Assembly (NCBI GenBank): GCA_963082975.1
Contig: OY720345.1
Location: 25,366,611-25,430,610, forward strand
Direction: 5' to 3'
Source: Labia minor
Lineage: Eukaryota > Arthropoda > Insecta > Dermaptera > Spongiphoridae
Length of the DNA stretch: 64,000 nucleotides
Part shown: positions 5,462-58,422 of the stretch, in pieces
Layout: each line of letters opens with the position of its first letter
Numbering within the stretch: the first letter of the stretch is position 1
Made by a program: the position numbers and the translations under genes
The notes under the pieces: model-generated
What the model was told of the DNA's origin: nothing
Seen by the model: the letters and a program-made list of their open reading frames with translations, nothing else
The model's database searches: none

Positions 5462-8400
5462 TATATACACGAGGTGTGTTCAAAAAGTAAGGTGACTTTG
5501 TATTTTTAAGAAATAATATTTATTTATTTATCAATATTTATGTTGTCCCCTTCAAAGTAATCCCCCTCAGATACAATATACTTATGCCAACGATTTTTCC
5601 AATCCTCAAAGCACTTCTCATAAGCACTTTTCGGTATAGCCTTGAGCTCTTCCAGCGATGCAGTCTTTATCTCCTCAATCGTTGCAAATCTCCGTCCTTT
5701 CATAGGTCTCCTTAGTTTTAGTTAGTTTTTTAGTTGTGACCCTTTTGAGTATATCTGGGTCGTCGTTGACGTCATTCAACAGCTCTTGAGCGATGCTCAT
5801 GCGACGGTTCTCTACCGATATACCGACATCCTCAGCAACTTCTCTGATAGTGATTCGACGATTTTCAATTTTCTTCACTGCTTGAACGTTTTCATCAGTT
5901 GTTGGCATTGGCATCTTCCCGGCCATCTTAGAAGAGTTTGTACCACTTGTAAACATTTTTTTTACTCAGAACAGTTTCACCGTATGCCACTGTCAACAAT
6001 TCAAGTGTTTCGGAGTACTTTATTTTATTTTTTACACAAAATTTGATGCAAATCCTTTGATCCATATTTTTCGATAGCAAAAAATCGCCGAGCACGCAAA
6101 ACACTTATAACCTTTACGCCTCTCACAACCAAACAAAAAATGCTACACTTGAAACTTGGTACAGATGTTCGGGAAGAGTGTACCAACATAACAAAACAAA
6201 AAAAATAATCGAAAGTACGTTGCCAGCGAAAGTTGAAAAGTCACCTTACTTTTGGAACACACCTCGTATATATATACCTAAATATAATATATTTAATTTG
6301 GCTTTCAATGAGAGAAATTGTTCATCGGTTTATAGTGATTTTATTAGTTATAAAAGAATAAAAGGAGGTGGAAAATATAATTTATACTTCCTACCTAACT
6401 ATATTTATCTTAAATTCTTTGTTAAGAGTATTATTAATATTTTTATCAATTTTATCTTCATTAATAACATCATTAATCATCTTATCATATGAAATCTCAT
6501 CCAATTTGATTACTTTATTATTATATTATATTCTTTGTATAATATTCAAATTTTCATCTTGTAAAATATCTCATAAAATTCTTCTTATTGTTAGAGGGAC
6601 AAGCGGCTTCTAGCAGCACGAGATTGATTAATAATAATAATTTATAGGAAATTTTGTTTCATTTATTACAAAACAACACAATGTTTAAATACAAAATTAA
6701 TAACTTTATTCAAATCGTCGTAATATTTTTTTTATTTTTTTTTCAATATTTAATAATAACAAAACAAAATTTTAAAAAAAAATGTAGTTAGTAATAAATT
6801 GGTAATTTTGATAGGTTTATTTTTATGTTTATTATGTTTAATAAATTCTCTTTTATGATAAAAATATTATTAATAACAAAAATTAGAATATTTCAATTTG
6901 TATTTCAAATTTTTTTTATTTTAAATTCTATAAAAATTTTAAATTATAAAATTCTAAATTTGCAGTTATCTTTATAATGTTACAGACATTTCATACATAC
7001 TTACATAGAAAATTATATATTTTGATGATAGATAGATATGTATAATATATTTTCTCAATGAATGAATAAAATAAAATAAAATAAAATAAATGAATTCTTT
7101 GGGTAGTTTCTCATTGGAATCAATTTGCGATTAACTTCACTTGCTATTATCATATTAAAACTATTCTAAGTTATATTTATTATTCAAGTAAATTTAAATA
7201 AAATTAAAACTATAGTCAAATAAATTTAATATTATACATAATGTGATTTTACCATCGTAATACCCTCCTGTAAGATCCTCTCCTCGAAGTCCCCTATCGT
7301 GGAGCGCTGAGTCACCCCTCCACGGGATTCGATTGTCTTTCGGTAGTGGCCCGGACCTTTGCGCTTCATAAAATAGTAAAGATGCCTCCAGCACTTGATT
7401 GTAATTGTATTCCGACCCAGCCACGCACACCAATAATAACTACAAAAGAAAAAATAACTTATATTTTCAAATAAATTTAAAAATAATTTATTTAATAAAT
7501 TATTAACGAATATTCCTTAATTAAAGAAGAAAGTCCATAGGCGCCACATATATCCTTAGATCAGTGATTCTCAACCTTTTTTTTTTACCGCGGCACACAA
7601 AGAAAAAGATAAGTGTAAAAGTTTACCATATTAAAAAAAAGTGGTCCCAAAAACGGTTTACCTTTTTTTAGAACTATTTTGAAAAAAATTAGAAAAAAAG
7701 TCGGAAATGTTTAAGAATTTAGTCCCAAAAACGTTTTAGTTTTTTTACTATCTCGCCAGAGATAGTATTGCGATCACGAAAATTTTCGATGTTGAGATTT
7801 TGATGTTTTTATACGTTTTGAAGGTTCCTGAATCATTTTCACTAAGGTTGAGAAAAATGTCTCTGGGTGTGTGTATGTGTGTATGTATGTAACCAAGATT
7901 ACGCAAAGACGGTTTGAGCTAGAATCATGAAATTTGTACACGGGTGTTATTCAAAAATCATAGTTTTCTATCAAATTTTGAGAAATGTAGCACAACCGGA
8001 AGAGGGTCATTACCTACAACGTTTTGATTTTTTTTCTTCAAAAGTGACCGTAAAAATAAAGATATATGTTTTATAATTTTTCACATGATTAATAATTGTA
8101 TAAAACTGCTATATATATAATTTCAGCTTGATTGAATAGCTGAAAGTACCAGAATTAATTTTTTAACACTGTAAATCTCACGCGCCAACACGTGACGTGG
8201 TGCCATCAACAGAGCCAAACATGCGCTGGTTTAATAAATATTTATTAATTTTAATTTATAATTTAATTAATTTATTTTAATTTAAATTAATATATGTTAT
8301 TTAATTCAATTTAAATTTGCGAGAAAGTCGAGTGGAGACACTCCAGATTTTTTTTTTTTAGAAACAAATTGAAAAAATTTAGAAAAAAAAGTTTAAGAGA

Positions 8401-11400
8401 CTCGTAATCTCGCCGCAAACTTAGGAAAATCTCGCGGCACACTAAAGTGCCGCGGCACAGTGGTTGAGAATCACTGCCTTAGATACATGTAGTAATTTTT
8501 CATACTTGAATATTTTTTTAACAAAATATAATTTGTTATACATATATTAGGCAAATTATTAAAAAATCATTATATAACGTTTTTATCAATTTCACTTCAT
8601 GCCCGTCTGCCTGTATGTTCGCTCTTATGATAAATTGAAATTAAATCTTTTTTTTATAAAATTTTTTTATATTTATTTTATTTTTCTTATACAAAATAAA
8701 ATAAAAAATAAAAAAAATAAATGATTTTTTTTTTATTTAAATGAAGTAGGATTTTGCTTAATAATAATTAGTTTTTAAATATATACATTAAAATATATTT
8801 ATTTATTAACAAACTAATAATAATTTATAATTATTTTTAATAAAAATAATAATTTATCAGATATATATATATATAACTTCCCTTATTTGAAAAACAAATA
8901 GACTAGAAAAGTGTTCAATTATATTTTCTCAGAATTTATAGAAAAATATATATAAAATATTTTTTATTTTAGTTTATATCGAGTAATGACACGAGCAAGA
9001 TGACTTGATCGCTAAGGGAATGTTTTATCAGGTAAATTAATTTATTATCCTTAATTGATTTTCTAATAATAAATAGGTATATAATTAACAGTTTTTCTTC
9101 ATTAAGATTCTCTATCAATAAAACCAGCTACAGATACAATTTCAAATAATTTTAATATATCTATTAATGTAATAAAAACAATATTTTTATAATTCAATAT
9201 TTTATATTAATAAATATATTAAACATGTAATAATTTGTATTTTAAATTCATAGATTATTTACAATAATAATATATAGTAGCCAATTATTATTTTAATAAT
9301 CTTATCAATTGGTCCAATGAATCGTGCAAGGCGATTTTCAATATACCAAGATTTCAGTATACGTACATATTTATATTATATATTGAAAATATATTTTATT
9401 ATTTTAATTTATATCAAAAGTAATTATTAATTGTCAATTAATTATTATCATTAATTTGACTTCTAATTGGTCTCATCCAATTATTTTATTTTATTAATTA
9501 TTAACATTTTTTTATTTCTCCTATTGTTTAAGATTTTTCTTTCGTTTCTTTATCTTAATATCAGATCAGGTCCATCATCAACGTTCACTTCGTGATAGTC
9601 TTGTAACGAATTTAAATTTTTACCGACCGACGATAGTAAGGGAGGTATTGTTTTCACACCAAATTTCACATGTGGAGATTTTTACATATCTCCACCAATC
9701 ATGCATTTTCTTAACAGAATAAGTTGACCTGTGGCCAGGTCCGAACCGACCGACGGTTTGAAGTAAATTAATTAGCAGCTACAGAAACAATTTCAAATAA
9801 TTTTAATATATCTATTAATGTAATAAAAAACTGATATGGATACATAAATAATAAATATAAACATTTTTAATTTTATTTTATTTATAATATATATATGCAA
9901 GACCAGGCTGTGACGTCATGAATGGCTGGATGACGTCATATAATTTTAAATCAAGAAAAAACTAATAAATATGATTTTCCCGAGAATAAAACCAATACAA
10001 AGTGCATGTTTCGTGATGATATATAAAAAAATCTCCTCATGTGAAATTTGGTGTGAAAATAACCCTTCCCTTCCTAATACTACCACTTCCGGTTTCCGGA
10101 TTTGCACCAAAAGTTGATCAATTCATCCCACTGATGCATTAAGTAAATATACCAAATTTCATCAAAATCGGTTGAGCCGTTCAGGCTGTACACATCTATA
10201 CGGACGGATGGACGGACGGACAGACATCATGCTAAAAATACTTTATACTTTATAGGGTTATTTTCACACCAAATTTCACATGAGGAGATTTTTTTATATA
10301 TCACCCCGAATCATGCACTTTGTATTGGTTTTATCCTCGAGAAAAATAATCTTTATTAGTTTTTTCTTAATTTAAAATTATATGACGTCATCCATCCATT
10401 CATGACGTCACAGCCTGGTCTTAAATATATATTATAAATAAAATAAAATTAAAAATGTTTATATTTATTATTTATGTATCCATATCAGTTTTTTATTACA
10501 TTAATAGATATATTAAAATTATTTGAAATTGTTTCTGTAGCTGCTAATTAATTTACTTCATCGTCAGTTCGGACCTGGCCACAGGTCAACTTATTTATTT
10601 ATCGGTATGTTTCATAAAGTAGAGATTCCATAAATAGCCTTAGAATTATGAAATCACTCCACATCTATTTGAATATAGGCTTTAAATTTTATCAATACAT
10701 ATTTAATTTTTACCGTGTGACGATAGTAAGGTAGGTATTGTTTTCACACCAAATTTCACATGTGGATATTTTTACATATCATTTTACGAATCATCATGTA
10801 TTTACTTAATGCATCAGTATGAAGAATTGATCAACTTTTGGTGTATATTCGGAATCAGGAAGTTGTAGTATTACCGATCGACGATAGAAAGGGAAGGGTT
10901 ATTTTCACACTAAAGCTAAAGGGAGCTGGAAATTAATTTATTTCAAACCGTCGGTCTGTTCTGTGCCTAGCCACATGTCAACTTATTGTAATGTTTTATT
11001 ATACCGAAACCGTTATAAAGATGTAAATTAAATTGACTAATTTTAAGTTAACTTATCTATATTTTTGATTATTTTTTTTTAATTTTAATTATCTAATAAT
11101 ATCTCACAGTTGAAAATGAATTAGTCATTATATATATTTTAATGAAATATAATTTTATAAATATATTTTACAAATTTATAAATTATACATTTATTCATTT
11201 TGTTTAATATCTTAATCTTACTGTTTATTTATAATTTAAAAAGTTAATTAAACTTATAATATCCACAATAATTACATAATACTAATCAACTGTCAGGGGT
11301 ATGTGTAAACCACCCACTATTATATGATTAGCAAGGAAATTATATAATATAATATAATTATTGAAATGTAAATTTAAAAATGATTTAAAATAAGTTATTA

Positions 11401-13266: not shown

Positions 13267-13297
<31 letters not shown>

Positions 13298-16200
13298 CAT
13301 ACATACATACACACACACAGACATAATTCGAAAAATGGTATTTTCCGACTCAGGGAGGTCTAAAACGTCAAGATCTATCGAAATCTCGAAGTCGAAATTT
13401 TTGACGATTCCAATACTTCCCTTATACGAAGTATGCGGGAAAGTAAAAATTGGATCAATGTTTGCTGAACATATTATTGAATTTACACATCTAGATGAAA
13501 CGTGCAATTCAATATATAATTAATATCTATTTAAAACTAAATTAAAATAAATAATAATAAATAAATAAATAAATTCAAATTATAAAATTCTTGTTACAAA
13601 ATTTACGATGATCTCACTAGTAAACATTTTAAACATAGTACATTTTTACTATCTCGCAAGAGATAGTATTACGATCATGAAAATTTTCGATGTTGAGATT
13701 TTGATGTTTTTATACGTTTTGAAGGTTCCTGAATCATTTTCACTAAGGTTGAGAAAAATGTCTGTGTGTGTGTGTATGTATGTAACCAAGATTACGCAAA
13801 AACGGTTTAAGTTATAATGATGAAATTTGGTACATGAGCATTATTCAAAATTCGTAGTTTTCTATCAACTTTTGAGAAATGTAGCTCAACCGGAAAAGGG
13901 TCATTACCTACAACGTTTTGATTTTTTTTCCTCTAAAGTGGCCGTAAAAATAAAGATATATGTTTGATAATTTTTCACATGATTAATAATTGTATAAAAC
14001 TGCTATATATAGAATTTCAGCTTGATTGAATTGCTGAAATTACCAGAATTAATTTTTTAACACTGTAAATCTCACGCGCCAATACGTGACGTGGTGCCAT
14101 CAACAAAAAGCCAAACATGCGCTGGTTTAATATTTATTATTTATAGTTTATAATTAATTAAATTTAATTTAAATATAATATATTATGTTATTTGATCCTA
14201 TTCAAATTGCGAGATAGTCGAGTGGAGACACTCCAGCTAATTTAGATATTGTTTTGTTACACATTGTATTTATTTTTTCCCTTAACATTCCACTTAATTT
14301 TCCACAAAACATATCACATTGATGTAAATACTTTCTGGGGTATCCTTCCAGAGAAAAAAAAAATTTAAAAAAAAAAATAATAAAATAAAAATAAAGACTC
14401 GAATCCAAACAACGAAATTTCGAAAATATAACGACGCACAGTGAAAATTAGCACTAATTAAGCAGCGACGCATCTTCGAAAAAACGCAAAACGAGGTGTT
14501 GGTGTATAATTTTTACGTTTTTACAGAATATTTATTTTTTTTTTTTTTAATTGTTAATTGAATCTTTAATTTAATATTTAATAACTCTCAGAGTTAAGAA
14601 TTTTTTTTCTCTTTGGGTATATTAAATTGAAAACAGAATTTTGAGTCGTTCAATGACTTTAAAAGCTTTTACTTTCTTTGAAAGAATGTAATAAATTTAT
14701 TATTATTATTATATTTTATATTGGAAAATTGTTTATAATCAAGGAAGAAGAAAGAGCTGGAGGCCTTGAATATTGAGAATGTATGTTTATAGATCCGATG
14801 ACGTCATTCAATTGACATTTGATGAAATTTCACCACCATTTAATTTAATATCTGATTATGGTGAAAACCTTATTTATTGATTATATATATACTGAAAATT
14901 AATCTTTAAAAATCTAAACTTGGTAAGGAAAAATTATAATTTAATTATTAATAATATTTATTAAAATATTATATTTTAATTTTAATATATCATTTTAATT
15001 TAAGATTTTAAGTAATCACTAAATTATGGAAATTAAAATATTAGTGGATTTTTCTCCCCGGGTACATTCCAATGAACCTGTCGTCATTTTCATCCTTTCA
15101 AGGGAATGGAGTAGGATTTTATAAATGCACACGAGCATAGTTTAGTCATTTCCTGTTTAATTTATATTTATTATAATCTTCTTTTTATTTCTTATCTACT
15201 TTTTTAAAAATTTTTTTTTTTATTCAATAAAAAATTTATATTCGAAACTGCATTATAATATTTATTTTAAAAGAAAATCAAAATTTATTTATTCCTTAAT
15301 GATTTCTTTTCTATTTTATTATTTAGACTTTTATATTATATTTAAAATTTGTGATTATTATTTTTTTTTCTTTTTAACTTTAATAATATTAAAAATAAAA
15401 TTCCGTCCTTACAAGTTATGTGAATAGAAACCGTAAACAAGAAAACTTCAGTAGATTTCAAGGTTTATAATTTAGAAATATTTTTCCTTTGTTTTAATCC
15501 AATCAACTAAAAATTTATCATTATAAAATTAACAAGAAGAGGGTATATTTCAATTCAATTTAATCACACTGAAAATTCGATCTTAGAACCCAAATAGAAA
15601 AAAAAAACATTATGTGTATTTGATGTATTTTTGACATCTTTTTAATTCTTTGAATAAAAAACTATTATCTAATTTTTATATTATATAAATGGGATTTCCG
15701 AAGGGAAATAATGATATTTAATAGAATAAATGATTAAAAGAGAGATATGTAATGTTTTATTAATATTCCCATAATTTAATATTTTCCTTACATTATTAAT
15801 TTAGAATAAATAAACCGAATGTATATTGTATATATATTGTTTCAAATTTTAATTTACATGAATTTAAATAGAGAAAATTTGTATGTTATGCATACATTTT
15901 CAATTTACTTGTAACATAAAAATAAAAATCTGGAGTGTCTCCACTCGACTATCTCGCAAATTTGAATTGGATTAAATAACATATATTAATTTAAATTAAA
16001 TTAAATTAATTAAATTATAAATTAAAATTAATAAATAATATTTATTAAACCAGCGTATGTTGGCTCTTTGTTGATAGCACCACGTCACGTATTGGCTAAA
16101 AAATTAATTCTGGTACTTTCAGCGATTCAATCAAGCTGAAATTCTATATATAGCAGTTTTATGTAATTATTAATCATGTGAAAAATTATCAAACCTATAT

Positions 16201-19200
16201 CTTTATTTTTACGGTCACTTTAGAAGAAAATAAATCAAAACGTTGTAGGTAATGACCCTCTTCCGGCTGAACTACATTTCTCAAAAGTTGATAGAAAACT
16301 ATGAATTTTGAATAACACCCGTGTACAAATTTCATGATTCAAGCTCAGACCGTTTTTGCGTAATCTTGGTTACATACATACACACATACACACACACACA
16401 GAGACATTTTTCTCAACCTTAGTGAAAATGATTCAGGAACCTTCAAAACGTATAAAAACATCAAAATCTCAACATCGAAAATACGCAAGAGATAGTAAAA
16501 TCAACCTCTGACTTTGTACATCCTACGCAAGGACAAAGCTTATCAAGTCGGTTATATCAATGAGATGTCCTATGATCAGTAGAGTGGGTCCTATCAACCT
16601 TTAACTTGATTTTCTTGATCGGAGGCGCTATCAAGTAGCTTTCCCAATTTTGATCCCGGGGCTGTATTGACTCCGTCCCATAGACCCCGATTAGAGAAAT
16701 AACGAATATTTACCAAATGTCAAATAACGAATAATTACCAAACACCGAGCACCAAGTTTAGGTACTTGTATTGAATATTCGTCTTGTTAATATTATTAAT
16801 ATATAAATATAACCTCCTTATTTTGGTTTATTGAATTTAATTGAATAATTTAATTAATTGAATTGTAATACTTTATAAATAAATTATTTAATTGGAATTG
16901 TTAATTTATTATATAAAAAAGGAATTGTTAAAGAAACAATATTATTTATTAAAATTGTGGATATAAATATTCTCAAATATTCGTCTTGTGCTCGCTATAA
17001 TAGCGAACTCGCGATCAATGTTTGTGCTCGGCATATACCAAGCGCAGGGCAAGCAACCCATCCACACATGAGGTGTTTGCCAAATATCAAGCAAAACATT
17101 TGGAAAACACCGCATGTGTGGAACCGGCTTATTAAATATTATTTATTAATTTTAATTTATAATTTATAATTAGTTAAATTTAATTTAAATATAATATATT
17201 ATGTTATTTAATCCAATTCACATTGCGAGATAGTCGAGTGGGGACACTCCAGCTTATTTTTTATTTAAAATAATGCATATATAAATATTTTCTATTAAAT
17301 AATTTCAGGATAATTAAAGAATACAAAATCAAAAAAACAAAACAATTATGACTATATTCTGTACAGAATTATATAACAAATAATAAGAAAATAATACTGA
17401 ATTTGTGTGGGACTTGAGATCAGCTATTTTTGAATGGGTAAACAAAATTCACTTTGATGATTTTGTTTGTATTAAAATGAAGTATGAAAATGAACTTAAC
17501 CCTTCAGGTAGAAAAAAAAAAGAAATATAAAAAACATTTTAAGATAACTGACATTTCAGTCATTAATCACGACCCTATGTCAAACATTGTATTTCAGAAA
17601 TGATTATTCTAAAATAGAATAAAAAAATATCTTAACGTTTCATGAAAACCCCTTCATTTTTTTTATAAATACAATAATGATAAATTATTAATGAATTGAA
17701 TTATGCATTATTTATTTGTTTGAATATATTCTTTCATCAATGAAGGTATATAATGAATTTAAAATAATAATTTCTATAATATCTATTTATTAATTAAATA
17801 TCTTATCTTATTATGCTAGCAAAAATTGTATATATCTATCTATCTATATATATTGGTTCTCAAAAACCGCTCTAACGATTTTTTTCAAATTCACACTAGA
17901 TATAGTATTTATAAAGAAAAATTGAGTTTTATTGATCACATCTCTTGAAACATACAGCTTCATTATTAATTTCTTAATTGAAAATTATATATGGAAAACG
18001 TCAAAATTGGCATCCATTTTTATTTTTTAACTGAAATTGTATTAATATTTTTTTTATATTTAAAATATTTTAAAATTTATTATTTAATTTCGAAATAAAA
18101 TTAAAAATATTTATTTTTAATAAAATATATATAGATATTTATTAATCTCTCTCAAAAAAAAAAAAAAAGTAAAAAAAATCAAATACTGCCTGCTAAGACA
18201 GTAAAAAAATGACAATTTTTTATCTAAATATATATAGTCCAGAGGTTAGAGTGATGTTTTAACGAGTGGATTTCGTCGGTTCGAAACTCGCCGGGTGAAT
18301 CGTTATTTAAAAATGAAAATAATGATTTTGTTATTTTTTTTTTCTTTTTATCTATTGTTTACTTTTTAATAAATTACTATTTTATATTTATTTATTCATT
18401 GTTCTTTTATTAATTAAGTTTTAGATAGTAATATAATTTTTAATATTTTTTTAATAAAATATTATTTAATATATTTATTAATATTATTTTATTTATTATT
18501 ATTGAGTACCCGAAGTTCCATTCATTTTAATCAGATTGATGCAATGATGCAACAGTTAATAATTGTAATATTGTAATAAATTTCTATCTTGAAAATTGTT
18601 ACATATTATTCAGGATATTTTAAAAACAATTTCTTTCTTTAATTAATATTCATTTTTTCTATAAGTCAGATATATTTCCAAATATTAAATAATTTTTGAA
18701 GTGAAAACTTCTTTAGCGGCGTTGAGCACTTTTGCGGGATGGGGAAAAAGTATAGAACTCGCGTGATCGTGACCAACACCATGAAGCTAGCACATTACGT
18801 CTGCTTTCAAATTTCTTATAACAGAGCGCGAAATTTGAATTGTCATTAGAACTGTTTTATAAATTATCTCTAACATATAAATATATATTTATTATGTAAA
18901 GTTCATTTCATATATACATATATAATCAAAATTATACGAAATGAACTTCACATAATAAATATATATTTTATGTTAGAGATAAGAATTATAAAACAGTTCG
19001 TATTGCAATATTTTAAACAAAGTTGTGTATTTATATATATATAAATATAAGTTACAAATTTGTTTAAAATATATGTTTAAAATAATATATAAGTTATATA
19101 TATATACATGCATATGAAATTCATCTTTCTCGTGAAATAGCGCGAATTTCGTCTGTTTTAAAATTTCTTACGCAGAAGTTTTCACTTCTGTCGGCCAGTC

Positions 19201-22200
19201 CCACGACTGCCAATTTTGCTTTTTTAATTCCGAAAAGCTGCAAAGCACGTTTTTTTGTCTTTAGTTTGTTTTATAACCACTTGGGGCGCTAAACAGTTTT
19301 TCAAAAAAACACTATAGAAAAAAATATATGTACCTATATATTATATATTTATGTATTATTGAGGAGCACAAGTTCATTCATTTTAATCAGATTGATGCAA
19401 ATGTGTAACATTTAATAATTGTAATAAATAATTAAAGAATTGTATATCAATATTTTTTAAAGGGTAGAGCGAGAGCTCGGTGTCTCAGGTATTAATATTA
19501 CCAGCCAAATCCAATAATAATGAATCATTTTTTTTAACTTAAGTACCGAGCCGAGGCTCGGGGTCCCGGTACTCCTTAATTATATGAAAAAATGGTGAAT
19601 TATTGCTTATTATTATATATGTAAATAATATATATTATAAATAAAAAGTTTTTATTTTGATTAAAAAAAAAATTATAAAATAGAATAGTGTATATTAATA
19701 TTAAAATTATCAATTAAGAAAATAAATACTTTTCTTTTTACTATCTCGCCAGAAAATTTTCGATGTCAAGATTTTGATGTTTTTATACGTTTTGAAGGTC
19801 CCTGAGTCATTTTCACTAAGGTTGAGAAAAATGTCTGTGTATGTGTGTGTATGTAGACAAGATTACGCAAAAACGGTTTGAGCTAGAATATCAAAATTTG
19901 ATATACGGGTATTATTCTAAATTCGTAGTTTTCTATCAACTTTTGAGAAATGTAGCTCATTCAGAAGAGGACTATTAACTATCTCGTTTTCATTTTTTTC
20001 CTCTAAAAGTGACCGTAAAAATAAAGAAATATGTTTGATAGTTTTTCACATGATTGAAAATATTATTATATATATATAATTTCAGCTTGATTGAATCGTT
20101 GAAAGTACCAGAATTAATTTTTTAACACTGTAAATCTCACGCGCCAATACGTGACGTGGTGCCATCAACAAAGAGCCAAACACGCGCTGGTTTAATAACT
20201 ATTATTTATTAATTTTAATTTATAATTAATTAAATTTAATTTAAATATATAATATATGTTAATTAATTCAATTAAAATTGCGAGATAGTCGAATGGAGAG
20301 TCACTCCACATTTTTCCTATTGTATAATAATAAAGTAGTTTATTATTATTTTTAAAAGATCGAATAGATAATTAATTAATAACTAAAGATTATTAATTTA
20401 TCTTAAATATAAATTAATTAATTTATATTAGTTAATATTTATAACAAATTCCGTAAAGTTCTAAAATTTAATAGATAACTTTAAATATTTGGAATTCATT
20501 AAAGTGAGATTAGATCCTGAATTAAAATAAAATATAAAATACATGAGAATTTATAGTTTTAATTTATAATTATTAGATTTGACTGAATTTGAACGAATTT
20601 GAAATAATATTGAAATTCAAAGGTTTTTAAGGGGAATTTTTGTAAGTGGTGTCCGCCGCACTGCTTCCCAGCGGATTGCCTGCCTACAGGGGATGCATTT
20701 GAAATTCAATCAGGAGGGTAATGGGGATGAGGGTCTGGTTAGGCTGATAAGATCCCTTATAATAATTACATAGTAATGGCACCTATGGCAAATATTATAT
20801 TTTTTAATGGAGAATATTATATTATTATTATATTTTTTATATGTTATGTTATTTTCTTGACAAAATTCAGAAATACATTATATATACCATAAATAAATGA
20901 TACGGATTTTTGAGTCGAGAAAATATGAAAAGCTGAGTAAAATTTTATTGTTAATTTTTTTCTGAATTATTTATTTTCATTTGGTTATTTTTTTTGAAGA
21001 AATTATATTATCAAAATATTCACTTCAAATACGTAGGTTATTGTTATATTATTTTGTTTTTTTTTTGGGAAAAATACATATATAAGTAATAAAAAAAAAA
21101 ACAAAAAAAACCTCTGACTTTTGTAGGTCCTCCGCAAGGACAACGCCTATCAAGTCGGTTATATCAATTAGGCGTCCTATGATCAGTAGAACGGGTTCTA
21201 TCAACCTTTATCTTGATTTTTTTGATTGGAGGCGCTATCAAGTAGCTTTCTCACCTTTGATCCCGGAGGTTAGGTTGACTCTGTCCCATAGACACTAACT
21301 AGAGAAATTCCCTTGCCAGACCAGGGACTTCATCCCTGGACCACGAGAATGTGAGGCAGCTTCGCTAACCTCTCACCCTGTGGCGCTTTATATATAAATA
21401 ATATAAGTATATAAATAATTCTGTTAGAGTAATAATTTTTCAGAAGAATACAATATAATAAATGTAAAAAATTATTTATTTAAATCTCCGAGGTCAGAAT
21501 TTTTTTAAGATAAACTTATACGACCAAATGCATAAAAAAGAACAACACTAAAATTTTTATAGATTTTATTGATCAATTTTTCTAATTAGAATTTATTTAA
21601 TTTAATTAACTCTTTATATTTTTTTCATCTATATATGCAATGAAGCATCTTTTAATATGCTCTTCTATAACTTCCTTAGAATGATAATTTCAATTTAATT
21701 TATAGTGCAATAAATAAATGAATTATACACTACTATTTTTTATCACATCATAATTAGTTAATTGAATAACATCATTTCTGTATACATTATGCCAATTTTT
21801 ATTATTATTACTATATTTTAATTAAATTTCTGTTAAATTAGATAGTTAATTTGAAAATTAAAGTAATATATTACTATTTTAATTTGTAATGTCCTTCCAT
21901 ATTTAGCAAAATTTATATTATATTTAAAGATTATATTCAATTAATAATGAAACTTTTATCTAATAAATCCTTTTAATTAACTTCCAATTTTTTTTTTAAT
22001 TTCCTTTCAATAAAATTAATACAATTGATAAATATAATTTCTGGATTGGAAAGGATTAGAGATTTTCAGTTTTCTACTTTTAAGATCCTAGAAGAGGAAG
22101 AAGGAAACATTGAAGGAAGATATTTTATATTTTTCAGTAGGGGGAGGAGGTATTTTTTCTTTTAAAGTTAAATTATGTGATATTATTTTTTAAAACAAAA

Positions 22201-25200
22201 TAATTAAATAAATAAACTAGACAAGGAAGAGAAGGTGTATTCTTATTTGTTAAATGAAACGCCTTTTAGAATATTAGGAATGTTAATTAAAAGATGGGGG
22301 TGTTATATGCCTTACTAATGTCAAGGGAATGCTAGTCATGAGTTGCTTGGGTGGAGGTGCAGTAGTACCAAGTCGTCTTTTGCTGACGCATACGGGGTTG
22401 CTCGGAGGTGGCATTCGAGAAGATAATACAACAATAATCCTTAATGGGAATAGTCAGTTGAATGTATTGGCTACTTTAGAGCGTGGATTATTATTCTTTC
22501 ATGAATACTCCAACCTTGAATCCCTAGTGTAGACAGGGTTGGTTTCTTTCTTTAAGAGGAGGCTCAGTAATTCATTCCGTAAGTTGGACTTTTTTTTATA
22601 ATTAACCTAAAAACTTACTACTCGATAAATAATATTTGAATGATTTTTTTTCTTTTTATTCATACAACTATAAATAGTTAAATAGAAGAGATTATATTAC
22701 TTTTATAATAACTTTAATTAATAAATTTATATTTGAGAGGTAAAAATGTTGTCTATGAACAGACATTTAAGGAATGTTTAAAAAATAAAATAACATTTCT
22801 TTTATTTTCTAACCATAATTATTTATTTCGCTCAAAGTATTTAAATATTAGTTTCTCTTGTGATTTCAATGCCTTGAGTTTTCTTTTAATATTGTACTTT
22901 CATTATTTATATATAATATTATAATATATCTTATCTTATTATACTAGAGGAGTGATTTTAAAATTCACACCAGAAATAATTTTTAAGAAAAATCGATTTG
23001 AATTCATCATGTTTCAGCCTCGGAATAAATCATATTTATTAGTTTTTTCTTAATTTACAATAAGGAAATTTAAATGACGTTAGCAACTACGTCACACAGC
23101 GTTTCCTTAAACACAAAAGATTATAAATAAAATAAAATTAAAAATATTTAGTTTATATCCATATCTATCTTTCAGTGCATTAATACTTAATTTTAAATTA
23201 TTTGATATTGTTTCAGAATGTTTATTAGTTTTTTCTTAATTTAAAATAGAAAATTTAAATGACACAGGAACTACGGCAGAGAGCGCTTCATTAAAATACA
23301 AAATATTATAAATGTAAATAAAATCAAAATACGAAATATATATTATGTTATATCCACAGGCCATACTTTTCTGTCTTTCAGTGCATTAATACGTACGTTC
23401 AAGGGTTGTATGTTTTATGACTTTTTTAATTTATGTTCTTTTCAATTATTTGAACTGCGACTCGGTGAACCAGATACTTATTATAAATATTGCAAATGCA
23501 GTTTTGATTAAGAACCAATACTTTGAGAAATTAAATAAAAGAGATATGGAAAAAGAAAATAATAAGTTTTGTTTTTATTTTTATTTTCTTAAATATCTGC
23601 TAACATTTCTTTCTCTTACCTATATACAGATATACTTATAATGTAAGGGGTATTATTTACAACATTTTATTATAAATATTACTTTGATTCATAAATATTC
23701 AAAAATAAATTCCAAGAAAAATTAATAAAAGTTCTTTAAAATTTGAATAAAATAGAATTATTTCAAACATTCATTTTATTAATCTCTTTTATTTTCATCG
23801 CTCACTGCATTTCAATGTTAGTTTCTCTTGTGATAACATAAATCAAAGCCTCGAACTTTTATACTTCAGAGAGATGAAAATATGGAATCTAATTAAATTT
23901 TTTTTTAAAGTTCAAATTTTATTAAAGTATTTTTTTCTAAATTTATTATGGCGAAAATTATTTCAAATGTTAGGGAGATATTCGATGTCGAGATTTTGAT
24001 GTTTTTAAACGTTTTGAGGTCCCTGAGTCATTTTCACTAAGGTTGAGAAAAATGTCTGTGTGTGAGTGTGTGAATATGTAAGTAGACAAGATTACGCAAA
24101 AACGGTTTGAGCTAGAATGATGAAATTTGGTACTTGGACATTATTCAAAATTCGTAGTTTTCTATCAATTTTTGAGAAATGTAGCTCATCCGGAAGAGGG
24201 TCATTACGTTTTCATTTTTTTTCCTCTAAAGTGACCGTAAAAATAAAGATATATATTTAATAGTTTTTCACATGATTAAAAATTGTTTAAAACTGCTATA
24301 TATAAAATTTCAGCTTGATTGAATCGCTGCAAGTACCGGAATTAATTTTTAACACTGCAAATAACGCGCCTGCACGTGACGTGGTGCCATCAACAAAGAG
24401 CCAAACACGCGCTGGTTTAATAAATAATATTTATTAATTTTAATTTATAATTTTATTGATTAAATTTAATTTAAATATAATAAATGTTATTTAATTCAAT
24501 TCAAATTTGAGAGATAGTCGAGTGGAGACAGTCCAGATTTTTTTGTTCTCTTCTAATTGGATATTTTTTAAAATTTTTATTTTGATCATATGCTGTATAA
24601 TACTTATAAATATTGTACTAATTTATTATATTAATCATTTATATAGTAGATGAATTTAATTTTTTTAATAACTTTTACCAGTCAAATAAATATGATCAAC
24701 ATCTTGATATGGTCGAATTTATCCATTGGTGGATATGTTCCCATTTTATTTTTGCTTTCACTGGTAATCCAACGGACATGCATGCCATTTGATAACAACA
24801 ACCGACGTATCCTAATGTCCATCTTCAAATCTATTGTCTTCAACTATTCTATACAATTGTTATTGTAGCATTTGATGACATTTGTAACGGAAATGTTTTA
24901 TTTTCTTGAATATTAATCAAACCACGATCGTTTTCTATGCTAATCGAAATGTAAAATGAAAAAAAATATTAGAAATTTAACTGTTTGTGTCAGCATATTA
25001 AATTGTTACATATATATTTTTTAATCCTAACAAATTTTATTTTATTTTCAATCCTTTGTTTTTGAATTAATAGCTTTAAACTGCTATTTCTAGTTCTAAT
25101 TATCAAATAAATAAATATATCAATGATTAAAATAAAAAATTTTATGCATTAAAACAATACTATACATACACACATTTAATTTAACTTTATTTAAAATAAA

Positions 25201-32095: not shown

Positions 32096-33571
32096 GGTAA
32101 ACGTAACTTCAACTAAATTTCTTTGAACTAATAGTTTTTTCAAATTGTTAAAAAGCAAAATTATGTTTTATGATTCAATTTCAATCCTATAGAAAAATTA
32201 ATTTTCTATTTTATTTTATTTTTAAAATAGATAATTAAAAATTTGTGTCAATTGTCTCAGAACTCATCTTAGGGTATAATCTTTATTTATTATTTTTATT
32301 TAAGTTATTTATTTTTTATTTTATTTTAGGAATTGTGAGTTAACTATAAAACTAATTATATAATCTTTTCTTTTTATATTTTTGATTATTCTTATTTAAT
32401 TTGAAAACTTGACATTGTTTTTATATACTTATTTTAAAATTTATAATTAACGGATTATTCATTAGCAACGCGCTAGGGAAACACTCCCCTCTAACTCACT
32501 ACTTGTTTAATAAAAACTCCGGAAAAATGTCTAATTTTTTAAAAAAAAATTTTAATAAACTAAATAAATAATTATATATTTCGCTAGTAATCAGATAATA
32601 GTGATGAATGAAAAATTCGAATATAGATAATAGAAAAAAACATTTCAAGAGGGATTTGTCTCACATAAATATTTCATTCAAAATGAGAATTCAAAATTGT
32701 GATATGAAAGTCATAGTGAAATCATATGTTAACTTCTTTGACTATATTTAAAATTAAAAATATTTATTAGATTAAAAAAATGTAGAGAATTTGTTCTTTC
32801 TTAATAAAATGAAATGAAATCGTATTTTATTTATATATTTATATAATTCTAGATTGCTCTGTCCCTTTACAGCCGCAGTAATACATATTATTTAGTTAAA
32901 AGTCTTTTCATTTATTTGATTTATAGAAACTAAATTTTTTGACTTATTTGGTCTCCCCATAACCATACAAAATAAATTCAAATATTTATATTTTTAATTT
33001 AAATTCAATTTAATTTAACCATGTGTGTCATAATAATTGGCGTATAGAAATATTAACTGTTCTTAGCGGGATTAGATTTGATATAAAGAGTTGTCCAATT
33101 TGGCCTTAATCCGTATTGATATTCTCCTAAAATTAGAAAAAAGCTTATAAATGAACCCGAGTCCAATTCATTTACCCATAAATGTTGAATGAGACAACAA
33201 AATTTCTAGATTTGGCTAAAACAATTTCGGTTTTTTTTAAATTTTAAAATAGAGACAGATTCTAATTATAAATATACGAATAGTGTATTATTATTATTAA
33301 AATTATTTTTATAAATATATTAATATATAATTTTATTCTAAATATACTCAAAGAATATCTATCTTTTAATATTATAATTGAATTCAAATTTCTGAATTTA
33401 AAACTAAGTCGATTTTCAAAAAAGAATGTATTCAAAATATTAAATAAAAAAAAATAAGGATTTAAATAAATTATTATATTATTATATATATATTATAGAA
33501 TATAATCATTTGGATTTAAAACAAATTTAAAAAATTTACCAAATTCTTAAAAGAAATAAGCTGACACCAGC
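32096..33571. other. AT-rich intergenic DNA, nothing recognised
   Basis: About 1.5 kb with only short open frames and homopolymer-rich AT sequence; no repeat shared with the rest of the window. Confidence 0.6.
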
Positions 33572-33713
33572 GAGATAGTCGAGTGGAGACACACCTCCAC
33601 TCGACTATCTCGCAATTTGAATTGGATTAAATAACATATATTATATTTAAATTAAATTTAATTCATTAAATTATAAATTAAAATCAATAAATAATTTCTG
33701 GCGAGATAGTAAA
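33572..33713 (-). mobile_element. family A mini-copy (both ends, centre deleted)
   Basis: A stray 3' terminus (GCGAGATAGTCGAGTGGAG, 33572 on) faces an inverted one (TCCACTCGACTATCTCGC, from 33593). The latter leads through the AT-rich tail directly to the 5' start CTGGCGAGATAGT at 33701-33713. The result is a 120-bp element holding little but the two ends, showing how short non-autonomous forms arise. Confidence 0.7.
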
Positions 33714-38077: not shown

Positions 38078-39009
38078 AATAATAGTTCTCAATAATAATA
38101 AAAAATTAATTTTTTATTTATTTAATTATAGGTACGTTAATTCACTAAGAATTAATCTATTTTAATACTATATTATTTTTATTAATATTAATATCTCTTT
38201 CTCACTCTTTAGAAAGATTTTATTAAACTAACATAATTTGAATGAATTTTATTTTTTTAATTTTAACTTTTTTCATTTTTAAAATAATTCAATTAGTATT
38301 TATTTACATATAAATGAAAATTTTCTCAACCTTCACTTTATTTATATAAACTTATCTAATATATGCCATTGAAAATTATTATCAATAATTTTAATATAAT
38401 ATTTAAAATTTCCTTTTAAATGGAATAATATAATACATTATTAATAAAAAATCATATAAAACATAATTTTACCGCATATTTTATATATTAATTGATTTGA
38501 TAAAGAGGAGAATATGTATAAATAAATCCCAATAATCAGTGAACAACCATTAATATCATTAAATCCGAAATTTTAGATCAATCATGCGTTAATGAGAATA
38601 CAATCATCATTTACAAAGACCTTTCTTTATTCTACTTAAGAATTAAAATCACAACTCAAATTATAAAGTTCCATCATATGCCAAATTTTACCAGATGAGC
38701 CAAGTGTTTCTATGAGAAATGAATCATAAATCGAGTCAGCAATTTAATTCGATCGACGATGAGAGAGTAATCCGTATAAAGATATGGCATTGCATCTTGC
38801 ATGTATTTTTATCAAAGTCACCCCTGACGCAATCTCTAGAAACTCCAAACACCCATAAATTTACATTCTTAGGAAGTCAACCTATCCATCATCTCTTTCC
38901 ATTAATCTCTCCCAAATGAATCCTCATGATAGATTAATAACAAATATTTGTACAGAGCTTATGAACTTATATTTACCTTCGATGTAGATGGAATATTAAA
39001 ATTAAAAAT
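38078..39009. other. AT-rich intergenic DNA
   Basis: No repeat shared with the window. 38640-38935 is somewhat more complex (contains GATCGACGATGAGAGAGTAA and GTCACCCCTGACGCAATC) with a 66-codon open frame on plus from 38719. I see no domain or splice context, so I do not call a gene. Confidence 0.5.
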
Positions 39010-40141
39010 CTGGAGTGTCTCCACTCGACTATGTTGCAAATTTGCTTTGGATTAATTAAAATTTATTATATTTAAATTAAATTTAATTAATTAAATTGTA
39101 AATTAAAATTAATAAACAATATTTATTAAAGCAGCGCGTGTTTGGCTCTTTGTTGATGGCACCACGTCACGTGATTGCCAGTCAACGTGTTAAAAATTTA
39201 ATTCCGGTACTTTCAGCCATTCAATCAAGCTGAAATTCTATATAAAGCAGTTTTATACAATTTTTAATCATGTGAAAAACTATCAAACATATATCTTTAT
39301 TACTATCTCGCCAGATGATGTTGAGATTTTGATGTTTTTATACGTTTTGAAGGTTCCTGATTCATTTTTACTAAGGTTGAGAAAAATGTCTCTGTGTGTG
39401 TATGTATGTAACCAAGATTACGCAAAAACGGTTTGAGCTAGAATGATGAAATTTGGTACAATTATTCAAAATTCATAATTTTCTATCAAATTTTGAGAAA
39501 TGTAGCACAACCGGAAGAGGGTTATTACCTACAACGTTTTGATTTTTTTTCTTCTAAACTGACCGTAAAAATAAAGAAATATGTTTGATAGTTATTCACA
39601 TGATTAAAAATTGTATAAAACTGCTATATATAGAATTTCAGCTTGATTGAATGGCTGAAAGTACCAGAATTAATTTTTTAACACTGCAAATCTCACGCGC
39701 CAACACGTGACGTGGTGCCATTAACAAAGAGCCAAACATGCGCTGGTTTAATAAATATTATTTTTTAATTTTAATTTATAATTTAATTAATTTAATTTAA
39801 TTTAAATTAATATGTTATTTAATCTAATTAAAATTCGAGTGGAGACACTCCAGATTTTTTTTATGGTCAGTTTAGAGGAAAAAAATTAAAAACTTGGTAG
39901 GTATTGAGTTACATTTCTTAAAAGTTGATAGAAAACTAAGAATTTTGAATAATGACCGTGCACCAAATTTCATTATTCTAGCTCAAACTGTTTTTGCGTA
40001 ATCTTGTCTACATACACACATACAGAGACATTTTTCTCAACCTTAGTGAAAATTACTCAGGGACCTTCAAAACGTATAAAAACATAAAAATCTCGACATC
40101 AAAAATTTTCGTGATCGCAATACTATCTCTGGCGAAATAGT
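39010..40141. mobile_element. family A repeat (reversed) interrupted by another family A repeat
   Basis: The outer element is on the minus strand. Its 3' half is 39010-39301 (CTGGAGTGTCTCCACTCGAC at the left end) and its 5' half about 39854-40141 (ending CTGGCGAAATAGT). Between them lies a complete plus-strand copy at 39302-39853. The break falls in the T-run of the family's TCTTTATTTTTACGGTCAC block, so a member of the family has jumped into another member. Confidence 0.8.
39302..39853 (+). mobile_element. family A Helentron-like repeat, nested copy 8
   Basis: 552 bp, start ACTATCTCGCCAGATGATG, end AATTCGAGTGGAGACACTCC then AG, with the subterminal GCGAGATAG motif partly lost. Base before is T; after CTCCAGA comes T. 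Confidence 0.8.
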
Positions 40142-42025: not shown

Positions 42026-42035
42026 CTGAAGAGCT

Positions 42036-42674: not shown

Positions 42675-43254
42675 ACTATCTCGCCAGAAAATTTTCGATG
42701 TCAAGATTTTGATGTTTTTATACGTTTGAAGGTTCCTGAATCATTTTCACTAAGGTTGAGAAAAATGTCTCTGTGTGTGAGTGTGTGAATATGTATGTAG
42801 ACAAGATTACGCAAAAACAGTTTGAGCTAGAATCATCAAATTTGGTATACGGGCATTATTCAAAATTCGTAGTTTTCTCTCAACTTTTGAGAAATGTAGC
42901 TCAACCGGAAGAGGATCATTACCTACAACGTTTTGATTTTTTTTCCTCTAAACTGACCGTAGAAATAAAGAAATATGTTTGATAGTTTTTCACATGATTA
43001 AAAATTGTATAAAACTGCTATATATAGAATTTCAGCTTGATTGAATGGCTGAAAGTACCAGAATTAATTTTTTAACACTGCAAATCTCACGCGCCAACAC
43101 GTGACGTGGTGCCATCAACAAAGAGCCAAACATGCACTGGTTTAATAAATATTATTTATTAATTTTAATTTATAATTTAATTAATTTAATTTAAATTAAT
43201 ATATGTTATTTAATCCAATTCAAATTGCGAGATAGTCGAGTGGAGACACTCCAG
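42675..43254 (+). mobile_element. family A Helentron-like repeat, copy 10
   Basis: 580 bp, one of the cleanest copies: start ACTATCTCGCCAGAAAATTT, GTGTGTGAGTGTGTGAATAT microsatellite, end GCGAGATAGTCGAGTGGAG then ACACTCCAG. T before, CT after. A 69-codon open frame at 42773 belongs to the repeat and recurs broken in other copies, so it is not a gene. Confidence 0.82.
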
Positions 43255-43574
43255 CTTATTTTCTTAACAAGTGCATTGATTCAAATATAAATGCGATGAT
43301 GTGTATACTTACAATATCAATTTTAGACTCCAATGATTTCATTGAGATGGTCAGAATTCTGATAATATTAGAATCAAGACTGCTTTTAATTCTTTACGAG
43401 TTATCTTGTAAATTTCCAAAATGCATTCTTTCTATTCATTTTTCATTAATTGTGGATATCGATTTGAACACTTTAAATATGATTTTCGTTTGAGTGTAAA
43501 TAATAAATATAAATCTAATCAAAAACATACCTGTTAAAAAGGGGGCCAAGTTCCTATCGTCTATTTGTTTGCCT

Positions 43575-43787: not shown

Positions 43788-44005
43788 AAAATACATAGGT
43801 ACATGGTTTAAAATATCTAAAATTATAATACTTAGAAATTTGAACTTAGCAGGTTAATTTATATATTTAAATAATAAATATAATTATACAATTAATCTAG
43901 TGTTACGTAGAGCACGAAAACCTGCCAAGTTCAAATTTCTAAGTATTATAATTTTAGATATTTTAAACCATGTACCTATGTATTTTAACAACTATACCAT
44001 ATTTT

Positions 44006-44221: not shown

Positions 44222-44510
44222 GGCAAACAAATAGACGATAGGAACTTGGCCCCCTTTTTAACAGGTATGTTTTTGATTAGATTTCAATACTTTTTTGTAA
44301 GAAAGCTTCCTATTTTTTCCTTTGTGTGCCGCGCCCGCGTCCATTCTTAGCCTTTGAAGTAATTTTGTGTTTAAAAAAATTGCAAATTTATTAATATTAA
44401 TTGAAAATTATATAGAAACTGTTAAGTTATAACAATAAAAATAAACAAACTAATTAATTTAAATTATAAAGTAAAATGGTTTAACACTATTATATATATT
44501 TATAATTTAC

Positions 44511-53438: not shown

Positions 53439-53522
53439 ATCTAGACACAATTACTAGATGTATTTAATGGTAATTACAATTATTATTTAATATATATATA
53501 CGTATATATATTATTTAATATA

Positions 53523-54160: not shown

Positions 54161-55217
54161 AAGTTGACCTGTGGCCAGGTCCGAACCGACCGACGGTTTG
54201 AAGTAAATTAATTTCCAGCTACAGAAACAATTTCAAATAATTTTAATATATCTATTAATGTAATAAAAAACAGATATGGATAAAACATAAATATTTTTAA
54301 TTTTATTTTATTTATAATATATAGCTGAAGTAGCCGGCGTTACCAGAGGCTGTGACGTCATGAAGGGCTGGGTGACGTCATATAATTTTAAATTAAGAAA
54401 AACATAATGAAGATGATTTTTCCCGAGGATAAAACCAATACATTCGTGGTGATATGTAAAAAAATCTCCTTATGTGAAATTTGGTGCGAAAATAACCCTT
54501 CCCTTCTTATCGTCGATCGCTAATACTACCACTTCCGGTTTACGGATTTGTACCAAAAGTTGATCCATTCATCCCACTGATGCATTAAGTAAAGATACCA
54601 AATTTCATCAAAATCGGTTGAGCCGTTCAGGCTGTACACATTTATACGGACAGACGGAAGGACGGACGGACGCACGGACAGACATCATGCTAAAAATACT
54701 TTTTTCTGTTAAGAAAATGCATGTTTCGTGGTGATATGTAAAAAAATCTCCTTATGTGAAATTTGGTGTGAAAATAACCCTTCCCTTCCTATCGTCGATC
54801 GCTAATACTACCACTTCCGGTTTCCGGATTTGCACCAAAAGTTGATCAATTCATCCCACTGATGCATTAAGTAAATATACCAAATTTCATCAAAATCGGT
54901 TGAGCCGTTCAGGCTGTACACATCTATACGGACGGACGGACGGACGGACGGATCACTTCCGGTTTCCGGATTTGCACCAAAAGTTGATCAATTCATCCCA
55001 CTAATGCATTAAGTAAATATACCAAATTTCATCAAAATCGGTTGAGCCGTTCAGGCTGTACACATCTATACGGACGGACGGACGGACGGACGGACAGACA
55101 TCATGCTAAAAATACTTTTTTCTGTTAAGAAAATGCATGATTCGTGGAGATATGTAAAAATCTCCACATGTGAAATTTGGTGTGAAAACAATACCTCCCT
55201 TACTATCGTCGGTCGGT
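54161..55217 (-). mobile_element. family B repeat with tandem internal duplications
   Basis: Left end AAGTTGACCTGTGGCCAGGT (3' hairpin terminus), right end ACCGACCGACGATAGTAAGG on minus. The middle block, from AACCCTTCCCTTC through GTTGAGCCGTTCAGGCTGTA to the (GGAC)n tract, occurs three times (about 54495-54700, 54775-54950, 54952-55100). The element is therefore 1057 bp instead of about 617. Two TGACGTCA sites lie at about 54354-54380. The duplications start and end at the (GGAC)n microsatellite. Confidence 0.78.
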
Positions 55218-56993
55218 AAAAATGTGTATACATTTTTTGTAGACAATCGAATGAGGTACAATTTTTGTCGAACTTTTTTTGCTGAAAAACTCACCGTTTA
55301 GCTGAAAAATGCGAAAAACGTATTTTTGCAAACTTTCACCATCAATACAATTTTTTGCACAAGAGGGGTTGATGGGGATTTTTCACAATTTATTTATAAT
55401 AGTATTGAATATTCATACCACTGGATTAATATATGTTTGATAGTTTATCACATGAATAGAAATTGTATAAAACTGCTATATATAGAATTTCCTTTAATAT
55501 AATGATAATTATTTTTAATATTAAATCAGTTTAATTATAATTAATTTAATTTTAATTATTGCTATATATATATTTATTTACTTAATGAATAATATTGAAA
55601 ATAATATTTGATAAAAAACTTTTAAATATAGTGAACACTAATTGCAATAGATGGCGGGATATGTATTAAATCAGGATATCTTTTCAAAAATATATAAAAT
55701 TTATATAACTAATATAAATATTTCGTAATATAATAATAGTTTATAAATACTGAAGAGTAAATAATTATTTTACAAATAATAACGGTTTAGCTATCCTTTA
55801 TTTTATTTTAAATACTTATTCGTATATATTTAGTTAAAAAAATCTCCTAAATTCTTCTAAAGATACACAACAAAAAAAACAGAACTTAGTGAACTTTTCA
55901 TTTGAATTAGCCTTATAAAAAATTAAGTAAATTGTATGAAATATAAAGAGAATCACGTTTATTTGAACTTTTAGATATGCTTCAAATAATGTAAATGTAA
56001 ATTTAGAGAAAGAAGATAATTAAATTAAATATAATATTTTATGATTAGAGTATAATGCAAAGATTTCGGTTAATTTGAAATTTTATTCAGTGAATATCTA
56101 TATATTTGAAATTATTTCAATTCCATACAATTTAAGCCCGATATTTCTTACAAAAAAAAGTTTAAAGAAGCCTATTTTGATTGGTGAATTTGATATTTAA
56201 AAGGATTTGTATGAATTACAAATTTGTAAATAATAGAAAAGGCAATAAGTATTTTATTTACAAATATTATGTTTTTAGATGAATAATATATTTGAATTTG
56301 AGTTGAAATACATGTAATCAACTATATTTATTTATTTGGGAAGATTTTAGAAAGTTGGAGCCCCTTTTAGTTAGACATCCGACGCTACAGAAAATACTGG
56401 AGTGTCGAGGCAAAAAAATATAAAATTTACAAATAATTATTTAAGTTGAATTGTTAAAAAAATAACTCGGCAATGTCTTCTAAATCATATATGATCGATG
56501 ATTTCTTTAAAGCCGAAATGGTCTTTGTTGTTGAGGTGGTGCCTTGAGCTTAATTTAAAAAATAAAAATATTGAATGAAAATATTAAGTAATTGAATTTA
56601 AATCATAGAACTATTATGTCGGTCTGTTTGTGTGTATATATGCATGTCAGTCTGGGAAATTGTGACTAAAATTTATCATTAAACTCTTTGATTAGACTAA
56701 ATATTAAATTTTTTTCTTTGGCTTCGATTTAATATCTCATTAATTCAATTTTATTAAATGTTAAATAAAAATGATTTATAAAATACAAAATCATTTATAA
56801 TTCATAAATAATTTTAAATATATTAATCAGTTTATCAATTCATTTTTGATTGCTACTTTTTTATTATAATTACAATGAATTTATTATTAACCGATAGTTT
56901 TAAGCTAAAATTTCTCCCATCCAAATAAAAAAAAAAAGATTCGTTAAAAGACAAATTTTATGAAGATTAGATTTTTAATAGATAAATAAAATA
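55218..56993. other. AT-rich intergenic DNA
   Basis: 55440-55495 holds a scrap of family A (TTGTATAAAACTGCTATATA). Otherwise nothing gene-like is seen in 1.7 kb. Confidence 0.55.
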
Positions 56994-57800: not shown

Positions 57801-58422
57801 ACTATCTCGCCAGAGATAGTATTGCAATGACAAAAATTTTCGATTTCGAGATTTTGATGTTTTTATAGGTTTTGAATGTCCCTGAGTCATTTTCACTAAG
57901 TTTGAGAAAAACATCTGTATGTGTGTATATGTGTGTGAATTTAGACAAGATTACGCAAAAACGGTTTGAACTAGAATAGTGAAACTTGGTATACGGGCAT
58001 TATTCAAAATTCGTAGTTTTCTATCAATTTTGAGAAATGTAGCTCATCCAGAGGTCATTACCTACCACGTTTTGATTTTTTTTCCTCTAAAGTGACCGTA
58101 AAAATAAAGATATATCTTTGATACTTTTTCACATGATTAAAAATTGTATAAAACTGCTATATATAGAATTTCAGCTTGATTGAATCGCTGAAAGAACCGG
58201 AATTAATCTTTTAAATTTTTTAATACGTTGACTGGCAATCACGCGCCAACACGTGACGTGGTGCCATCAAAAAAAAAGTCAAACAAGCGATGGTTTAATA
58301 AATATCATTTTTTAATATTAATTTATAAATTATAATTTATTAAATTTAATTTAAATATAATATATGTGAATTTCCAATTCACCAATTCAAATTTGCGAGA
58401 TATTCGAGTGAAGACACTCCAG
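57801..58422 (+). mobile_element. family A Helentron-like repeat, full length, copy 11
   Basis: 622 bp, start ACTATCTCGCCAGAGATAGT (perfect hairpin), end GCGAGATATTCGAGTGAAG then ACACTCCAG. It lies about 80 bp upstream of the promoter region of the gene at 58891. Confidence 0.8.

Follow-up and report, generated by a model that had tools for sequence, protein, structure and literature searches.

A dispersed repeat of about 600 bp, here called family A, recurs through the 64,000-nt stretch of the Labia minor genome that we analysed (the window, which lies on contig C2 of a 604-Mb assembly in 71 contigs). We conclude, with a probability of roughly 0.94, that family A is a Helentron-associated element (HINE): a non-coding element derived from a Helentron by deletion and mobilized by the rolling-circle enzyme of that Helentron acting in trans. 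As a check, the initial annotation of the window, which was made from the sequence alone, had suggested looking for a longer element that shares both ends and encodes a Rep/helicase protein. Such an element, about 12.2 kb long, was found on another chromosome, contig C1 (~47,862,612-47,874,777, minus strand) and is referred to below as the parent. The annotation's Helentron-associated (HINE/DINE-1) interpretation is supported by the shared ends, the TT context of insertions, the Rep/helicase parent and features matching those described by Thomas et al. 2014 (PMC4067079).

A genome search with Helitron_like_N gave 104 matches, the 30 best of which were read as loci. RGLPH was the Rep motif in 23 of these 30 loci and RGSPH in four, while three had no readable motif. 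Four candidates outside the RGLPH group were taken as 10-kb stretches, and all four were RGSPH. According to the passages on Rep in Thomas et al. 2014 (PMC4067079), the L/S difference separates Helitrons from Helentrons, S being diagnostic of Helentrons. The open reading frame (ORF) of the parent is open over 2,181 aa, with the first Met at residue 17, and contains DUF6570, Helitron_like_N (E 1.3e-23) and PIF1 (E 1.9e-31) domains. Its Rep motif is RGSPHEH, with the Helentron-type S. The protein also holds FITLSAGETKWP, YVLKYVSK, GSAGVGKS, IIDE and GDFN, which we take to be Rep, Walker and endonuclease (EN) motifs. A cut-and-paste transposase in a full-length parent had been named in advance as evidence against a Helentron origin; the parent encodes Rep and PIF1 helicase instead, together with a weak endonuclease match.

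The link between the parent and family A was seen at both ends. At the 3' end (L043), the identity between the parent and the final 36-50 nt of family A is 92-97% and varies with the copy compared (50 nt at 96% for the 13648 copy, 36 nt at 92% for the 7747 copy). At the 5' end (L044, L065), behind TTTTT, it matches the family A consensus at 92% over nt 1-487 and at 96% over nt 278-514; where these two matches overlap, the parent carries an internal duplication. Judged from these alignments, family A retains the 5' ~514 nt of the parent (terminus, microsatellite and core) and its last ~40-50 nt (GCGAGATAGT and TGGAG-ACA-CTCCA), but not the coding part between them. Searched at the protein level, the genome also yielded close copies of the parent at C1:44.69 Mb, on C60 and on C10, plus more distant ones. 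The C1:44.69 Mb copy is 99% identical to the parent over 249 nt and ends eight T/A bases past CTCCAGC. Stop codons interrupt the C10 copy, which carries TTTTACTATCTCGCCAGAGATAGT and family A nt 1-246 (84%) on the same strand, 1.4 kb upstream of its start codon. The evidence for an autonomous partner therefore comprises both ends on the C1 parent, the 5' end on C10 and the 3' end at C1:44.69 Mb.

We further noticed a second Helentron, whose protein is 57-60% identical to that of the parent. Its upstream core is 68-73% identical to the family A core, GT/GTAT stretch included. Because of this resemblance, which involves few copies, the core and the microsatellite appear to belong to the 5' regions of these Helentrons rather than to have been acquired by the HINE. 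In the window, the GT/GTAT stretch was present in the seven copies listed for repeat family D9; outside it, the stretch was found in the parent and in the copy on C10. A second family with a HINE-like core is represented in the window by 12975-13451 and 44500-44787 (both minus strand), and its identity to the 5' flank of the second Helentron (C1:44701595-44705853) is 91-97%.

Family A could also be a rolling-circle element driven by a canonical Helitron (RGLPH), with the 5' match on C1 no more than a chance neighbour. The predominance of RGLPH among the best Rep loci would suit this explanation, as would the other repeats between the 5' end and the ORF of the C1 parent. However, no family A end was found in the 30 loci (3.3-3.6 kb, most outer ends not reached) or in one 10-kb canonical Helitron, L039. 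In both cases neither terminal decamer was present as an exact match, weak A/T-rich matches being all that was seen (1.5-kb flanks for the 30 loci), and both were rejected as partners. Canonical Helitrons insert at A|T and end in CTRR; family A inserts at TT and ends in CTCCAGA or CTCCAGCT, and its parent carries RGSPHEH. In addition, the family A 3' match sits at the point where two Helentron copies cease matching, and a separate Helentron copy, on C10, has the family A 5' end upstream. We therefore consider a canonical Helitron driver very unlikely. The elements L040-L042, RGSPH in all three cases, were likewise rejected as partners, with no family A end within 10 kb each. The Rep-helicase frames of L040 and L041 (1,785 and 1,754 aa) end past the helicase with no endonuclease match in frame, and that of L042 ends within the helicase.

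Aligned copies of family A begin, after a T run, with ACTATCTCGC and finish with GCGAGATAGTCGAGTGGAGACACTCCAGA or GCT, followed by T-rich sequence. The inverse complement of the 5' end and the 3' hairpin TGGAG-ACA-CTCCA, both reported in the initial annotation, were recovered: the subterminal inverted repeat is an exact 10-bp pair (ACTATCTCGC and GCGAGATAGT), the palindrome lies near the 3' terminus, and the 27-nt 3' end is repeated genome-wide. Allowing up to one mismatch, we counted 21 matches to the 5' decamer in the window, where 1.1 would be expected; 0 of 100 shuffles gave as many. Three of these matches (11853, 19978 and 27455) are not element ends. The 5' stem ACTATCTC/GAGATAGT, nested in the subterminal repeat, folded as single-stranded DNA with a z of -3.9 (0/200 shuffles). 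This hairpin had been described as part of the layout shared by all copies, which holds for only some of them. Its partner GAGATAGT is present in four of the nine window copies with a complete 5' end (7747, 13648, 57801 and, on the minus strand, 40141) and absent in the other five (19740, 39302, 42675 and, on the minus strand, 16496 and 33710). Genome-wide, the hairpin form has 8,804 exact matches compared with 173 for one hairpin-less form.

The proposed T-T insertion without target duplication agrees with what we found at the target sites. TT precedes 8,621 of the 8,804 exact 5' ends (97.9%), against ~13% expected from the base composition of the window. We read both flanks of 14 copies, with the element end set two bases past CTCCA. 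Direct repeats that abut both ends consisted of Ts only in 12 copies and were absent from two, and in no copy did they contain a non-T letter. Loose non-T repeats of 3-6 nt occurred in 6/14 copies versus 58/182 mismatched flank pairs. The insertion at 39302 sits in another family A copy, and its empty site is therefore supplied by other copies (consensus CTTTATTTTTA). The filled site has two Ts to the left of the element and eight to its right, and no base other than T is duplicated. The copy at 15929, compared with the empty site at 63741-63884 (84%, 146 nt), agrees with the absence of target modification, as does the 7747 copy compared with the repeat unit beside it (score 68, whereas none of 200 plain shuffles exceeded 45), both being weaker cases than 39302. 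The consistent duplication of 2-8 bp that would have spoken for another type of element was thus seen neither in the 14 copies nor at 39302.

These flanks bear on whether family A is a miniature inverted-repeat transposable element (MITE), moved by a cut-and-paste transposase and bounded by its inverted repeats as terminal inverted repeats. Family A has the small size, the very high copy number and the short inverted repeats close to its ends that a MITE would have, but the repeats are placed asymmetrically, one at the 5' end itself and the other with a further 17 nt, hairpin included, behind it. Together with the lack of any flush non-T duplication, at the nested site as elsewhere, and with a Rep/helicase encoded by the element that has both ends, this makes a MITE highly improbable.

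By its genome-wide counts, family A is a new and abundant HINE family, for which this genome probably also holds the autonomous partner. The exact 24-nt 5' end occurs at least 8,804 times and the exact 27-nt 3' end at least 16,503 times, while the reversed pattern was found 0 times in either case. To pair the ends we sampled 39 exact 5' ends on C1, within the range common to both sets among the matches listed. An exact 3' end followed on the same strand 590-651 bp downstream in 21 of the 39, whereas the opposite-strand control gave an exact 3' end at 500-700 bp for none. Among the 39 are two very short pairs, of 130 and 143 bp, which by eye combine ~100 or ~75 nt from the 5' end with ~30 or ~70 nt from the 3' end. 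As 3 of the 11 3' ends within the window are exact, the total extrapolates to ~60,000 copies (16,503 x 11/3), a figure with a one-window basis on which we do not rely. A short interspersed nuclear element (SINE) or other retroposed sequence, its T run being the complement of a poly-A tail, would fit the T runs at both ends (A runs on the complement), but its probability is close to nil given the fixed spacing of 21/39 ends, the lack of long flush target duplications, the lack of an Rfam match at the gathering threshold in the window and a coding parent that matches family A at both ends. No relatives were detected in viral contigs by one exact DNA pattern or one protein stretch, and among the matches listed no paper printing either terminal 10-mer concerns transposons by title.

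Several observations weigh against family A being a HINE of this parent. Both ends were found on only one of four parent-like copies and each end on two of four, the tally for C60 covering its 5' side only, with the 3' half outside the sequence covered. On C10, the ~1 kb that follows the coding part lacks a family A 3' end, and on C60 the 3.5 kb upstream lacks a 5' end of the family; by eye, C60 is cut just before the start codon by unrelated sequence resembling a long terminal repeat (LTR) retrotransposon. The C1:44.69 Mb copy is joined upstream to the second Helentron. The 3.6 kb between the 5' end and the ORF of the parent includes slices of other abundant repeats, so that, for the C1 parent alone, a 3'-truncated family A copy could lie upstream by chance; a search for recurring junctions in this region failed because of the same slices. 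The 3' hairpin folded weakly as single-stranded DNA (z -1.6, matched by 18/200 shuffles). TT stands at the third and fourth base past the hairpin in only 9,071 of the 16,503 3' ends (55.0%), those without TT at the tested offset including the CTCCAGCTAATTT form, as in the parent. Ts flank both sides in 12/14 copies, which is compatible with a T-only duplication; the same ambiguity between such a duplication and element-borne Ts is described in the target-site account of Thomas et al. 2014 (PMC4067079). Residues ~1,843-1,929 of the parent match the AP-type endonuclease PF14529 at 21.1 bits (E 3e-4), below the 27.4 cut-off, and a profile of the endonuclease region from three sequences matched no solved structure at E 0.01; the G-D-x-N and YHKP columns are invariant in the parent and two other Helentrons. 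Finally, the subterminal repeat of 10 bp is shorter than the 12-15 bp reported for the mite element HINE-Mo and the 13 bp for DINE-1 in the descriptions of Thomas et al. 2014 (PMC4067079), the likeness to HINE-Mo being one of description, not sequence.

Trans-mobilization via rolling-circle transposition is most likely, with steps that we infer from the known biology of the family. The Rep HUH domain would nick at the T|A 5' boundary and the helicase would peel one strand off, the 3' hairpin acting as the end signal. The AP-type endonuclease would nick T-rich targets, where the single strand would be joined; joining at such a nick would leave no duplication and a variable count of terminal Ts. 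A likely partner with an open 2,181-aa frame in the same genome makes direct tests of cis-requirements and trans-mobilization possible. The 130- and 143-bp copies, as well as the hairpin-less ones, suggest cis parts that may be dispensable.

The C-terminus of the parent may hold a further domain. Within the final 168 residues, a stretch of 39 residues gives a borderline match to Peptidase_C48/Ulp1 (20.3 bits, cut-off 20.7); with 485 residues as query the score was 17.7 bits. The best solved structure was SENP8 (E 0.004 with 196 residues, 0.016 with 485). H, D and C are present in what we take to be the active-site order of the C48 family. At the corresponding place, the related Helentron L049 from the same genome carries an OTU domain (PF02338, E 1.3e-8). 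Helentrons with OTU or VTD deubiquitinase domains are described in the relevant part of PMC9741609, and the part of PMC2836005 on Ginger1 transposons gives OTU or Ulp1 for these and names OTU, not Ulp1, for Helitrons. No report of Ulp1 in a Helentron was found in the literature searched, the coverage of which leaves out most subscription journals. We tentatively suggest, at slightly less than even odds, that the parent Helentron swapped its ubiquitin-type protease (OTU or herpes-tegument-like VTD) for an Ulp1/SENP8-like C48 protease at the end of the protein. If true, rolling-circle transposons would have recruited deubiquitinase-like activity from at least three unrelated protease families, much as Ginger1 did with OTU and Ulp1. 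Alternation of OTU and Ulp1 between two Helentrons of one genome would bear on why transposons carry ubiquitin-family proteases.

We surveyed the window by BLAST with four full copies as queries. Of the 14 stretches found, 13 were kept as family A, together 5,541 bp or 8.7% of the window (table 1); 13125-13284, a 71% match, was dropped and assigned to the second, related family. Repeat finding in the window yielded families D1, D2, D4, D5 and D7-D10, which cover most positions listed in the initial annotation, and all 11 of those positions hold family A sequence. Some of the listed pieces needed correction: a 3' fragment lies at 17131, the copy at 23978 is truncated at its 5' end, and the piece at 33572 is internally deleted with a palindromic 3' end. 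The entries at 39010 and 39302 are not two neighbouring copies; a plus-strand copy (39302-39854) is inserted in a single minus-strand copy (39009-39301 and 39855-40141). Divergence from a 605-nt majority consensus was 1.7-10.3% among 14 full copies, seven from the window and seven from other chromosomal loci. None of the five stop-to-stop frames of at least 120 aa in the window overlaps a family A copy.

Table 1. Family A sequences in the window, with coordinates and strand.
Coordinates	Strand	Description
7747..8347	+	Full length with 5' hairpin; insertion at a T run
13648..14238	+	Full length, 5' hairpin present, 3' end CTCCAGCT
15929..16496	-	Varied 5' terminus ACTATCTCTTGCG, hairpin partner absent; related empty site 63741-63884
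17123..17254	+	3' fragment with subterminal repeat and 3' hairpin (one mismatch)
19740..20309	+	Full length, hairpin-less 5' form
23978..24537	+	Lacks 5' end; match begins at query nt 17
33570..33710	-	Internally deleted piece: 5' end and ~100 nt of 3' end
39009..39301	-	3' half of a copy interrupted by a more recent insertion
39302..39854	+	Copy nested in the minus-strand copy; target site a T run, duplication Ts at most
39855..40141	-	5' half of the split minus-strand copy
42675..43256	+	Full length, hairpin-less 5' form, 3' end CTCCAGCT
55429..55491	+	Short internal fragment, additional to the initial list
57801..58423	+	Full length, most diverged (10.3%) of the 14 aligned

At the 3' terminus of the internally deleted piece at 33570-33710 (minus strand), the subterminal repeat forms a perfect palindrome (19+6+19), which looks like the outcome of the 3' hairpin serving as its own template. 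A mini-family built on this piece was rejected, its junction being found in none of the other 39 scored matches (293 first-look candidates).

Other repeats share the window with family A. Identical 300-bp direct repeats (33900-34199 and 37236-37535) flank a minus-strand ORF of 669 aa with DUF1759. This looks like a very recent gag-type LTR element with no polymerase in the 669-aa frame, which we assume to be BEL/Pao-like. A nested, near-perfect palindrome occupies 43511-44284, with outer arms (43511-43703 and 44092-44284) that are 100% complementary and inner arms (43697-43855 and 43919-44077) that are 98% complementary. Tandem units of 282 and 142 bp lie at 54443-55094, and the same dispersed repeat occurs at 9997, 12620, 40461 and 45642. 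A 495-aa ORF at 60494-61981 (minus strand) is hAT/BED-like by eye and has no Pfam match at E 0.001. Elsewhere in the genome, broken Helitron Rep matches at C5:46740114-46792979, spaced ~9.8 and 5.7 kb, look like a tandem array of Helitron remnants.

In the account of HINE-Mo and Helentron-Mo from Metaseiulus occidentalis (PMC4067079), the HINEs are also non-coding deletion derivatives that share both ends with an element encoding Rep, helicase and endonuclease. Subterminal inverted repeats, a 3' palindrome, T-rich targets, variable Ts and the absence of target modification are described there as in family A, although the 3' repeat of family A lies closer to the terminus than the 38-60 bp given for HINE-Mo. 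DINE-1 (INE-1) of Drosophila, as described in the same source, likewise has a 5' arm nested in the subterminal repeat, a microsatellite, a 3' stem-loop and a preference for TT. Unlike DINE-1 in this description, some family A copies lack the 3' arm of the 5' hairpin. Dispersed non-autonomous Helentron elements are also reported from the Pacific oyster (PMC7492417); by the title of that paper these involve satellite-like tandem repeats, whereas family A has only the GT/GTAT microsatellite. For the parent, the comparison is with Ginger1, which according to the relevant part of PMC2836005 has an integrase-like transposase and terminal inverted repeats and, unlike the parent, no Rep/helicase. Ginger1 transposases are described there with OTU or Ulp1, not both, at the C-terminus, and the same alternation may be present here between two Helentron families.

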